NCBI RefSeq assembly: GCF_004135975.1
Contig: NZ_CP026538.1
Location: forward strand, 1,736,001 to 1,800,000
From: Solidesulfovibrio carbinolicus
Lineage (GTDB): Bacteria; Desulfobacterota; Desulfovibrionia; Desulfovibrionales; Desulfovibrionaceae
Direction of reading: 5' to 3'
DNA length: 64,000 bases
The notes under the pieces were generated by a model. That model worked only from the letters and a program-made list of their open reading frames with translations, searched no databases and was not told the origin of the DNA. Of the stretch, positions 14,748-38,613 are shown one piece after another; the stretch's first letter is position 1, and the number at the start of each line of letters is the position of its first letter. Both the position numbers and the translations under genes were made by a program.

Positions 14748-15162
14748 GGTAAAAAACCTCCGCTGCGCGCGCTGAAGTGCCCCGGGCCGCGTAGCGTCCC
14801 GGCGCGTCAGTCGACCGCCCAGGGCAAAAGGTAAGCAGTCGGCGGCGGCGCGGCAAGGGGGACGCCCCCGGCGGCGAGTTGACGGCGGCGGCAAAGACGG
14901 ACACAACGCCCATGGCGATGCGCGCCGCCAGACGCCCCAACAGGCGGGCGATTCGAAACGCATTACTTGAAAATGCAGCCGTATTTTCAAGAAAATGTCT
15001 TGGGATTTTGGCTGTTGCCGGCAAATGAACCGGTAGGCTTTTCGAGTGCGCGTCTCGCCGCGACGGCGCGCCCGCCAGGCCTTGCCGCCTGGTTCGTTTC
15101 TCCGCGCGATATGGCGGTCCGACGCCCGCAAACCGACGCCCACACGTTCAGGTGACCCCTCT
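14748..15162. other. Intergenic region with one copy of a structured repeat
   Basis: Divergent gap between the lactonase-like gene and the acyltransferase. Besides a GC-rich half with no visible genes it holds copy 3 of the three-copy structured element (14959-15050). Promoters for both genes must lie here but no clear consensus stands out. Confidence 0.5.
14959..15050 (+). repeat. Structured dispersed element, copy 3
   Basis: Outer stem CGCA / TGCG encloses a first hairpin (CTTGAAAATGC then GTATTTTCAAG) and a second one (CCGG-caaatgaa-CCGG within GTTGCCGG...GGTAGGC). The same order and spacing occur at 28604-28709 and 38498-38592. Shared segments include TGTTGCC and TAGGC followed by TTTTC. 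This is the most divergent copy. It could be a small RNA, a leader element of the acyltransferase gene, or a mobile palindrome. Confidence 0.6.
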
Positions 15163-28044: not shown

Positions 28045-28620
28045 ATGGCCGGCCGGGTCCTGCTCCATATCTGCTGCGGCCCGTGCGCCATCGCGCCGCT
28101 ATCGCGCCTGACCGAGGCCGGCCTGGAGGTTGTCGGGCTTTTCGCCAACGACAACATCCAGCCGGCTGCCGAATGGCTGCGCCGCCGCGACGGCGCGGCC
28201 CAGGTCGCGGCCCGGTTCGGCACGCCCCTGGTCATCGACGCCTACGATCCCCTGCCCCATATGCGCCGCTCCCTGGCCGATCCGACCGGGCGCTGCCGCC
28301 CTTGCTGGGACGAACGCCTGACCCGGGCGGCCGTTGTGGCCCGGGAGCAAGGCTGCGACGCCTTCACCAGTTCGCTGCTGTACAGCCGCTACCAGGATCA
28401 CGCCGCCATCGCCGCCCTGGGCCGGGCAGCCGGCGAGGCGGCCGGCGTGGCCTTCCATTACGCCGACTACCGCACCCACTGGGACGAGGGCGTGGCCCTG
28501 TCCAAGGAGTGGGGCATCTACCGCCAGCCGTACTGCGGCTGCGTTCTCAGCGAACTCGACCGTTACGCCAAGAAGCTGCGCCGCCCGCCGGTCCTCGACG
28601 ACTCGTGTCGCGTCCCTTGA
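28045..28620 (+). CDS. queH: Epoxyqueuosine reductase QueH
   Basis: 191 residues of the DUF208 family; QueH performs the last step of queuosine synthesis in tRNA, non-homologous to cobalamin-dependent QueG. Seen: HICCGPC with C10, C11, C14, NDNIQPAAE, CRPCW, SSLLYSRYQ and YRQPYCGC, the cysteines that hold the cluster and active-site metal. Probably cotranscribed with rng. Its stop codon lies inside the left arm of the structured repeat that follows. Confidence 0.95.
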   Translation: MAGRVLLHICCGPCAIAPLSRLTEAGLEVVGLFANDNIQPAAEWLRRRDGAAQVAARFGTPLVIDAYDPLPHMRRSLADPTGRCRPCWDERLTRAAVVAREQGCDAFTSSLLYSRYQDHAAIAALGRAAGEAAGVAFHYADYRTHWDEGVALSKEWGIYRQPYCGCVLSELDRYAKKLRRPPVLDDSCRVP

Positions 28621-28709
28621 ACAATACGAGCGTATTTTTTCAAGGAAAATCCATGGCGTCAGCCTTCCCTTCGTGGAGCTCCCTCGGTGGTTTTCGTGGA
28701 AGCGACACG
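28604..28709 (+). repeat. Structured dispersed element, copy 2
   Basis: Outer stem CGTGTCGC (28604-28611) with GCGACACG (28702-28709), enclosing hairpin CCTTGAACAATAC / GTATTTTTTCAAGG and a less regular second arm. Overlaps the queH stop codon. Same fold and partial sequence as the copies at 14959 and 38498. Confidence 0.65.
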
Positions 28710-29029
28710 CGGTCGTGCCACGCAGGCTCCCGACAAGGCTCGGCCATGTCCCAGTACGTCCATCCGGGGCATGCTGGGGCATGACTCCGGACTTTTGACT
28801 CGCCGCTGTTTTCACGACATGCCGACACTTTTCTCCTCCGTCATCAGGCATCTTGACCGGGCCGGAGCGGCCGTCGGCCGTTGTCGCCCTGGTCGCCGCG
28901 GCTTATACACATCTTTCCAGACGCGCTGAATCGATGTTGTTGGTTCCATTATGTCTGGAACGATAAACATGGAATCAATTCTCCGTGGACTTGTGGTCAC
29001 GTCCTTCACCCCGAACTTTTGGAAGAACT
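28621..29029. other. Intergenic region between queH and cbiB
   Basis: 409 bases. The first 90 belong to the structured element; the rest has lower coding bias than its neighbours and no convincing gene. An inverted repeat GTTCCA-N7-TGGAAC (28943-28961) about 70 bases before cbiB could be an operator. No cobalamin riboswitch signature was found. Confidence 0.5.
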
Positions 29030-36617: not shown

Positions 36618-37547
36618 ATGCGAATTGCAAACAATATGCTGGAGTTGGTGGGCAAAACGCCCATGGTGTGGTTGACCCGGATGGCCGAGGGCTGTTCGGC
36701 TCGGGTGGCGGCCAAGCTGGAGTCGTTTAACCCCTGTTCGTCGGTCAAGGACCGCATCGGCGTGGCCATGATCGAGGCGGCCGAGCGGGAAGGCAAGATC
36801 GGCCCGGGCGCGGTCATTGTGGAACCGACCTCGGGCAACACCGGCATCGGCCTGGCTTTCATGTGCGCCGTGCGCGGCTATACGCTCATTTTGACCATGC
36901 CGGAGTCCATGAGCCTGGAGCGGCGCACGCTGCTCAAGGGCTTTGGGGCGCGGCTGGTGCTGACCCCGGCGGCCAAGGGCATGTCCGGGGCGGTGGAGCG
37001 GGCCAGGGAGCTGGTGGCCGAAATGCCCGGGGCGTTTATGCCCATGCAGTTCGCCAATCCGGCCAACCCGGAAGTCCATGCCCTGACCACCGGGCCGGAG
37101 ATCTGGGACGACACGGACGGGCTCGTGGACATTTTCGTGGCCGGCGTCGGCACGGGCGGCACGGTGACGGGCGTTGCCCGGTCGCTCAAGGCCAGGAAGC
37201 CGAGTCTCAAGGCTATTGCCGTGGAGCCGGCGGCCAGTCCGGTCTTGTCCGGCGGTAAGCCCGGGCCGCACGCCATCCAGGGCATCGGCGCGGGGTTCGT
37301 GCCCGAGGTGCTGGACCGCGGCGTGGTGGACGAGGTGGTGACCGTGGCCAATGAGGACGCCCTGGCCACGGCTAGGCGGCTTTTGCGCGAGGAAGGCATT
37401 TTGTGCGGCATTTCTTCCGGGGCCAATGCCTATGCCGCCTTGGAACTCGCCCGCCGGCCGGAAAACGCCGGCAAGGTGATCGTTTTCATCGTCTGTGACA
37501 CGGGCGAGCGCTATCTTTCCACGCCGCTTTTCACCGAGGGGGTCTGA
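36618..37547 (+). CDS. cysK: Cysteine synthase
   Basis: O-acetylserine sulfhydrylase, 309 residues, makes cysteine from O-acetylserine and sulfide. PLP lysine in SSVKDRIG, substrate loop PTSGNTGIG, and GTGGTVTG phosphate cup are canonical. GGAG lies 6 bases before ATG 36618; another ATG twelve bases upstream is less well placed. The stop overlaps the cysE start as TGATG. Confidence 0.96.
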
Positions 37548-38494
37548 TGACCGACGCCAAGTTCCCGTTGCCCCGGCCGCGCCGGCGCACGCCGGTGGAG
37601 TGGGTGACCGAAATGCTGTGCGAGGAAGCCTCCTACGAGAAGGTGTACCATCGCCCGCTCCACGACGAACCCATGCCCTCGGTGCCGGTGCTGGAAGAGG
37701 TCATGGAACGCCTGCGCGGCATCCTGTTTCCGGGCTATTTCGGCCATTCCGACGTCTCGCCGGAGAACATGCGCTTTCACATCGGCGCAAGCCTCGACGC
37801 GGTGCATCGGCTCCTGGTCGATCAGGTGCGCCGTGGGCACTGTTTTTTTTGCGAAATCGAGCACGCCGGCACTTGCCAGGACTGCCAGGAGCGGGCCGAA
37901 AAACTGGTCGGCGATTTCCTCATGCGCCTGCCCGACATCCGCGAGGCCCTGGCTGAGGACGCCCAGGCCGCCTTTGAGGGCGACCCGGCCTCACGTTCGC
38001 CCGGCGAAACCATCTTCTGCTATCCGAGCCTGACGGCGCTCACGCATCACCGGGTGGCCCACGAGCTGCACAAACTTGGCGTGGACCTCATCCCGCGCAT
38101 CATCTCCGAAATGGCCCATTCCCGCACCGGCATCGACATCCATCCCGGGGCCACCATCGGCCGGCGGTTTTTCATCGACCACGGCACCGGCACGGTCATC
38201 GGCGAGACCTGCATCATCGGCGACAACGTGCGGCTCTATCAGGGCGTGACCCTGGGGGCCAAGAGCTTCCCCAAGGACGAGGAGGGGATGCTGGTCAAGG
38301 GCATCGCCCGCCATCCCATCGTGGAAGACGACGTGGTGGTGTATTCCGGGGCCACGGTGCTGGGGCGCATCACCATCGGCAAGGGCGCGGTCGTTGGCGG
38401 CAACGTGTGGGTCGTTGACGACGTGCCGGCCGGGGCGCGCATCGCCCAGCAAGGCTCGGGCGGGGTGATCATCCGCGACGGCGCGGGGATTTAG
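37547..38494 (+). CDS. cysE: Serine O-acetyltransferase with Cys-rich insertion
   Basis: 315 residues. C-terminal left-handed beta-helix with hexapeptide repeats and the catalytic region GIDIHPGATIGRRFFIDHGTGTVIGET. The long N-terminal domain resembles EpsC-type enzymes of anaerobes and carries a CxxC-N7-CxxC cluster (C99, C102, C110, C113), which could hold zinc or an Fe-S centre. Coupled to cysK, so both steps from serine to cysteine are one transcription unit. Confidence 0.95.
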   Translation: MTDAKFPLPRPRRRTPVEWVTEMLCEEASYEKVYHRPLHDEPMPSVPVLEEVMERLRGILFPGYFGHSDVSPENMRFHIGASLDAVHRLLVDQVRRGHCFFCEIEHAGTCQDCQERAEKLVGDFLMRLPDIREALAEDAQAAFEGDPASRSPGETIFCYPSLTALTHHRVAHELHKLGVDLIPRIISEMAHSRTGIDIHPGATIGRRFFIDHGTGTVIGETCIIGDNVRLYQGVTLGAKSFPKDEEGMLVKGIARHPIVEDDVVVYSGATVLGRITIGKGAVVGGNVWVVDDVPAGARIAQQGSGGVIIRDGAGI

Positions 38495-38497
38495 CTT

Positions 38498-38592
38498 CGC
38501 GTCTCTTGAAAAATACGAGAGTATTTTTCAAGAGAAATTCATAATTTCAGTCTGTTGCCTGCGAAAAGCCATAGGCGTTTTCCGTGGACGCG
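38498..38592 (+). repeat. Structured dispersed element, copy 1
   Basis: Outer stem CGCGTC / GACGCG (38498-38503 with 38587-38592), first hairpin TCTTGAAAAATAC / GTATTTTTCAAGA, second hairpin GCCT...AGGC. Begins 4 bases after the cysE stop. Cleanest of the three copies. Confidence 0.65.
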
Positions 38593-38613
38593 ACAGCACT
38601 TCGCCTCTATAAT
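38585..38613 (+). promoter_or_regulatory. Candidate sigma-70 promoter of the small lipoprotein gene
   Basis: TGGACG, 17 bases, then a perfect TATAAT at 38608-38613, about 90 bases before the start codon. The -35 box is formed by the right edge of the structured element. Confidence 0.5.

Follow-up and report, generated by a model that had tools for sequence, protein, structure and literature searches.

IS630 is said to prefer the TA of CTAG as its target, a preference reportedly described by Tenzen and Ohtsubo in 1991. Insertion sequences of the IS630 and Tc1/mariner type (IS630 itself and ISY100) show a TA duplication, according to the relevant part of one paper (PMC2170065). The passages available on RUP of Streptococcus pneumoniae describe a 107-bp repeat, A/T-rich relative to its genome and present in 108–110 copies, whose terminal repeats resemble those of IS630-Spn1, an IS630 element, and whose target is TA (PMC3049150, PMC2229807). 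Correia/NEMIS and ERIC are presented in a section of the second of these papers as dispersed elements of small size that carry terminal repeats and have TA at the ends, and matching insertion sequence ends are there said to have been either not found or not sought for such repeats, RUP excepted (PMC2229807). In Pseudomonas syringae, the entry for MITEPsy1 gives a length of 100 nt, terminal repeats and insertion at CTAG or YTAA (PMC3189936).

Here, we have analyzed a window of 64,000 nucleotides from Solidesulfovibrio carbinolicus, that is, the whole stretch of DNA examined, in which three hairpin-forming segments had been noticed. Judged from sequence comparison, they are very probably decayed copies of a dispersed, non-autonomous IS630-type MITE that would have been moved in trans into the TA of CTAG. 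No description of this repeat family was found in the open-access literature searched. The genome that contains the window (4.69 Mb, 6 contigs) is referred to as G000, and the genomes compared with it carry other G numbers. The relevant features of the window are as follows.

14952..15059, + strand: copy 1, old and decayed (nhmmer profile, 51.8 bits, and alignment), upstream of a gene assigned to Acyl_transf_3 by Pfam analysis of its open reading frame
28045..28620, + strand: queH (open reading frame; Pfam QueH)
28602..28711, + strand: copy 2, at the 3' end of queH (nhmmer, 71.9 bits)
28602..28615, + strand: left terminal inverted repeat of copy 2, CTCGTGTCGCGTCC
28616..28644, + strand: subterminal A/T-rich hairpin 1 of copy 2, CTTGAACAATAC / GTATTTTTTCAAG (sequence and fold)
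28698..28711, + strand: right terminal inverted repeat of copy 2, GGAAGCGACACGCG
37547..38494, + strand: gene ending at copy 3 (Pfam Hexapep; stop codon TAG at 38492-38494), named cysE in the original prediction
38491..38599, + strand: copy 3 (nhmmer, 95.7 bits), also present at this site in G005 and G007

The original prediction had described these segments as homologous and structured, and both descriptions were borne out. Pairwise alignments had identical nucleotides in 73 of 120, 79 of 117 and 79 of 113 columns, in each case scoring higher than any of 300 single-base shuffles, and the folds gave z values of -4.2, -2.5 and -5.1 relative to the mean of 200 shuffles (that of copy 2 was equalled by 2 of the 200). 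The limits first proposed were roughly right, but the true ones, listed above, are slightly wider. The consensus is about 109 bp long and has a G+C content of 39%, compared with 66% for the window. Its 14-bp terminal inverted repeats, CTAGTGTCGCGTCC, enclose two subterminal hairpins: hairpin 1 (CTTAAAAAATAC-NNNN-GTATTTTTTAAG) is followed by a linker, hairpin 2 (CGAAA..GCC...GGCGCTTTTCG) and then GGACGCGACACTAG. The element is short, has many dispersed copies and contains no gene of its own.

Two of the window copies reach into a neighboring gene. The left end of copy 3, TTAG, is the source of the stop codon of the hexapeptide-repeat transferase gene. Copy 2 has CTCG at its left end and CGCG at its right end; the queH frame reads TCG at the edge of the element and continues to a TGA inside it (28618-28620), and thus the last queH codons and the TGA come from the repeat (28602-28620). 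G005 and G012 have counterparts of copy 2 at the corresponding position, and in both the queH frame stops at a TAA at the element edge. We also observed a different repeat (GCCTCCGGCGGCC, followed by inverted G/C-rich runs) that is repeatedly found 3' of genes in several genomes from the genus, including positions downstream of queH in relatives (L119-L122, L125-L127). At the site of copy 1 in G005 (L102, G005:C2:1885542), a second, consensus-like copy adjoins the old one.

The element had been taken to have three copies, and the family proved far larger, with at least 65 matches in G000 alone. When copy 3 was used as a BLAST query against this genome, 47 matches at about 40 places were obtained (seven were the same place on the other strand), and a terminal-repeat pattern was matched 134 times, compared with 10 for the reversed control. 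Profile A2, built from 26 copies, gave 77 matches in the G000 stretches examined, of which 55 were full length and two were the halves of one split copy. At one locus (L156, G000:C1:3256495-3256700), a full copy and a decayed copy were found side by side. Model R1, which carried an RNAalifold structure of just three base pairs and thus worked as a sequence profile, matched 16 of 59 genomes including G000. All 14 genomes of the genus that were searched had matches, from 10 to at least 65 per genome (at least 65 each in G000, G005, G007 and G012), and two other genera had two matches each, with best E values of about 1e-6 to 1e-5. An exact core pattern searched in GTDB genomes returned six stretches, all from Solidesulfovibrio magneticus UBA7700, in a search from which records near the window's own genome may have been excluded. 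The original prediction had looked to further copies with covarying stems in related genomes; many copies were indeed present, but they behave as a transposable element and their stems show no covariation beyond that of shuffles (see below).

The presence or absence of the element was compared between close relatives by searching three of them for the joined flanks of 22 sites. Comparison of 23 of 30 loci (of the other seven, most were one-flank matches and one, L200, spans a junction) yielded 23 aligned site-by-genome cases from 14 of these sites; the count is confined to the loci examined, and spanning matches without a locus lie outside it. Where G000 carries the element, a clean CTAG was found at the empty site in 11 of the 23 comparisons and at 8 of the 14 sites. 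Another word was present in eight comparisons (CTAC, CTAA twice, CTTG twice, CCGG, TCGG and CTGG), and four were not clean.

As CTAG is palindromic, duplications of 2 and 4 bp could be separated in one case only. At that site, the filled copy in G005 reads CTAG...CTAC and the empty site in G012 reads CTAC, as predicted by a TA duplication for an element with G as its first base and C as its last; the right end at the same site is CGAG in G000 and G007, which neither the 2-bp nor the 4-bp model predicts. Among 124 copies from several genomes, CTAG was present at the left end in 53 and at the right end in 48 (the word being palindromic), and the commonest end pairs were CTAG/CTAG (21 copies), CTAG/CGAG (18) and CTCG/CTAG (14), with CTCG/CGAG in 3. 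The 21 copies with CTAG on both sides would also suit a MITE belonging to an IS5/IS701-like element that duplicates the 4 bp CTAG, and the available description of MITEPsy1 combines CTAG or YTAA insertion with a 4-nt duplication and the family entry 'IS5?' (PMC3189936). However, the ends of the present repeat match IS630 elements and the G005/G012 site fits TA instead of 4 bp, so that we consider an IS5/IS701-like origin improbable.

With regard to the IS630-type MITE, it should be noted that TA duplication alone does not account for CTCG ends, which depart from it. Read from the outside in, the 76 ends in G000 that do not serve as stop codons comprised CTCG (28, the commonest single state), CTAG (12), TTAG (1) and others (35). 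The CTAG or CTCG state is common to some same-place copies of two genomes and differs in the queH copy. A link between altered ends within a copy was considered and rejected (Fisher p = 0.07, for the 56 of the 124 copies with CTAG/CTCG-type ends on both sides).

The likely partner of the repeat was identified among IS630-family insertion sequences of the genus and family, which have nearly the same ends and lie beside CTAG. In G011, inverted repeats TAGTGTTGCGTCCTTGAAAT flank an IS630 transposase on both sides, and one end of an IS630 element in G009 is identical to the MITE end over 13 bp; the two transposases match NF033545 (231 and 237 bits), and these elements are bounded by CTAGTGTTGCGTCC, CTAGTGTCGCGTCC or, once, ATAGTGTTGCGTCC. 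None of the IS630 ends listed reads CTCG. Similar ends, in most cases following CTAG, were also seen at several IS630 relatives from other genera of the family. No convincing pair of ends was found at more distant relatives (such as L255, L256, L258 and L262) or at the IS630 of G005 (L205). Across 25 loci of IS630 relatives, the 13-bp end occurred once exactly and 11 times with one mismatch, compared with zero for the reversed control; two pairs of these loci overlap, and 10 of the 12 occurrences are distinct.

On the basis of these ends, we propose that a transposase of the IS630 (Tc1/mariner) type, supplied from elsewhere, would bind GTGTCGCGTCC...GGACGCGACAC and paste the MITE into the TA of CTAG, thereby duplicating TA; both mobilization in trans and duplication of TA in place of 4 bp are what this model supposes. 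Of 288 genomes from the family, 17 have a relative of the transposase with an E value no higher than 1e-20. A search at the same threshold found no transposase of the matching group in G000, G005, G007 and G012, the genomes with the most copies; the DDE_3 match in G000 was partial, and the single full DDE_3 locus of G005 (L205) had no MITE-like ends. The matching enzyme may have been lost, or may have been present only for a time, where the repeat is commonest.

Two possible parents were examined and set aside. Similarity between the MITE and IS630 past the first 11 bases was at the level of chance in five of six comparisons and marginal (52 of 1000) in one; since similarity to the G009 element does not clearly extend past these bases, a simple internal deletion derivative is not supported. 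An IS1595-family sequence is a separate insertion inside one copy (L035, G000:C1:104037-105142), with its own ends (CGTGGCTAT/ATAGCCACG), a 310-aa transposase and an 8-bp duplication, TTAAGAAA, within the MITE. Its second copy at C1:3575048 encodes an identical transposase, and no MITE ends were found beside it.

Terminal inverted repeats of 14 bp and TA/CTAG target sites are features of DDE elements. This bears on the idea of a REP-like palindrome family put forward in the original prediction, which was right about a dispersed palindromic repeat, but the ends are of the IS630 type, not of the REP type. A repeat of the REP/BIME type, mobilized by a RAYT (Y1 tyrosine transposase), would likewise form dispersed palindromes near genes, and three Y1_Tnp matches are present in G000; yet the repeats and target sites point to a DDE element, no MITE ends (one mismatch or fewer in 10 bases) were found in the flanks of about 1.5 kb at two of the three Y1_Tnp loci, and the third had one single-mismatch site. 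Such an origin is hardly credible.

The segments had also been regarded as a possible RNA, mainly on the grounds that the outer stems differ between copies and yet stay paired. Alignments revealed that these stems are different stretches of one 14-bp terminal inverted repeat: CGTGTCGC/GCGACACG of copy 2 and CGCGTC/GACGCG of copy 3 are separate parts of it, and CGCA/TGCG of copy 1 lies out of register within a decayed repeat. Covariation was measured in alignment A3, for which 85 copies were taken from 122 distinct ones 100-116 bp in length (the 85 top-scoring copies less one, plus window copy 1); the remaining 37 had been set aside prior to counting. The claim of selection through compensatory change found no backing there, as the covariation score was 0.097, with 0.098 for shuffles (equalled or exceeded in 304 of 500), and the remaining measures did not leave the range of the shuffles (equalled or exceeded in 50 to 109 of 500), including paired cells (84.8% versus 84.5%; 50 of 500). 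The terminal inverted repeat helix (helix 1) was paired in 83% of cells and hairpin 1 (helix 2) in 94.6%; the end pair of columns 3-111 was unpaired in 48 of the 85 copies. Pairing dropped to 39-51% when partners were slid out of register, as expected of any inverted repeat.

Same-place copies were compared in 19 pairs from two genomes each (the closest pair per group, with some groupings based on a single flank). Single changes broke 34 pairs and kept 15 in the outer stem, and broke 15 and kept 7 in hairpin 1; double changes kept the pair in one of six cases in the outer stem and in both of two cases in hairpin 1. The hairpin 1 stem changed least (26 of 441 versus 40 of 519 in the linker), a small difference, and a weak signal of selection on structure might be present in this hairpin.

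A small RNA, attenuator or terminator kept for the sake of its fold would be in line with the strong folding relative to shuffles, the highly paired and least changed hairpin 1 with its two pair-keeping double changes, and the many copies directly 3' of genes. Against it stand covariation no greater than in shuffles, the presence or absence at CTAG between close relatives, the predominance of pair-breaking single changes and the five outer-stem double changes that broke the pair. Nor did any Rfam family match the window at gathering thresholds. In addition, by a rough coding test, genes end equally often at the left and right ends of the element (18 and 18), which argues against a strand-specific RNA or terminator. 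We regard a conserved structured RNA as highly improbable.

The same rough test (at least 80 open codons and a rule on third-position G+C) was used to examine gene ends. In 34 of 56 G000 copies, the terminal NTAG supplies the TAG stop codon of a neighboring gene; two copies do so at both ends, and 30 of the 36 stop-forming ends read CTAG. With the IS630-type MITE this position is understandable: an element beginning in G and ending in C creates new junctions NTAG on the left and CTAN on the right. A gene hit at its stop codon thus retains a TAG stop, whichever its direction, and copies survive mainly at gene ends and between genes. Survival at stop codons would then reflect selection. CTAG is about three-fold depleted in the window (18 found versus 53.5 expected from trinucleotides). 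The 53 CTAG sites outside elements in the G000 DNA examined included 14 stops, 12 sites in coding frames and 27 others. Compared with the 41 non-coding sites (14 stops), stop codons were enriched among copies (Fisher p = 0.014), and also compared with the window sites alone (4 of 14; p = 0.04); the control is weak, because background sites adjoin elements and the gene test is crude. Purging of insertions within genes, together with stop-keeping ends, may account for most of the enrichment.

A tentative extension is that the element is specialized for silent insertion at stop codons, with the choice of CTAG an adaptation to a safe-haven target, which stop codons would form because CTAG is rare in the window; we consider it possible, though on balance doubtful. 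If this were true, the TA of a TAA or TAG stop could, together with the terminal G and C, again form TAG at both junctions, and convergent genes sharing one CTAG could be separated without harm to either. Alternatively, a MITE by origin might now serve the host as a 3'-end element, through mRNA stability or insulation of convergent genes. Its frequency at stops, above that of other non-coding CTAG sites, and the fairly intact hairpin 1 of old copies would agree with such a role; however, there is no orientation bias, the sparing of hairpin 1 is small, the control has the weakness noted above, and in-gene purging with stop-keeping ends can give the same picture, which makes a host function rather unlikely.

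Taken as an IS630-type MITE, an apparent mystery RNA would be explained as a mobile element, and Solidesulfovibrio would gain a repeat family that can be annotated, together with its likely transposase partner. It also offers a case in which the choice of target (CTAG, often a stop codon) could make insertion harmless. Such repeats can easily pass for conserved RNAs, because any inverted repeat is bound to fold.

Among known systems, the ends of the MITE match those of local IS630 elements, as for an IS630/Tc1-mariner element, whereas it has no transposase gene and its internal sequence is not detectably related. From their published descriptions, as far as available, Correia/NEMIS and ERIC are set apart by another host, and the present repeat has a matching insertion sequence end. 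MITEPsy1 is similar in size, terminal repeats and CTAG-type target, but differs, in the account consulted, in its 4-nt duplication, its 'IS5?' assignment and the sequence of its terminal repeat. The nearest analog, as far as its description goes, is RUP, with similar length, A/T-richness, IS630-like ends and, probably, a TA target. In contrast with RUP, the MITE has a CTAG target, 14-bp repeats, two subterminal hairpins, a frequent stop-codon position and another host, and no matching IS630 transposase was found in the genomes richest in copies. By analogy, and from its matching IS630 ends but not from homology with RUP, the repeat would represent a new member of the RUP-like kind.
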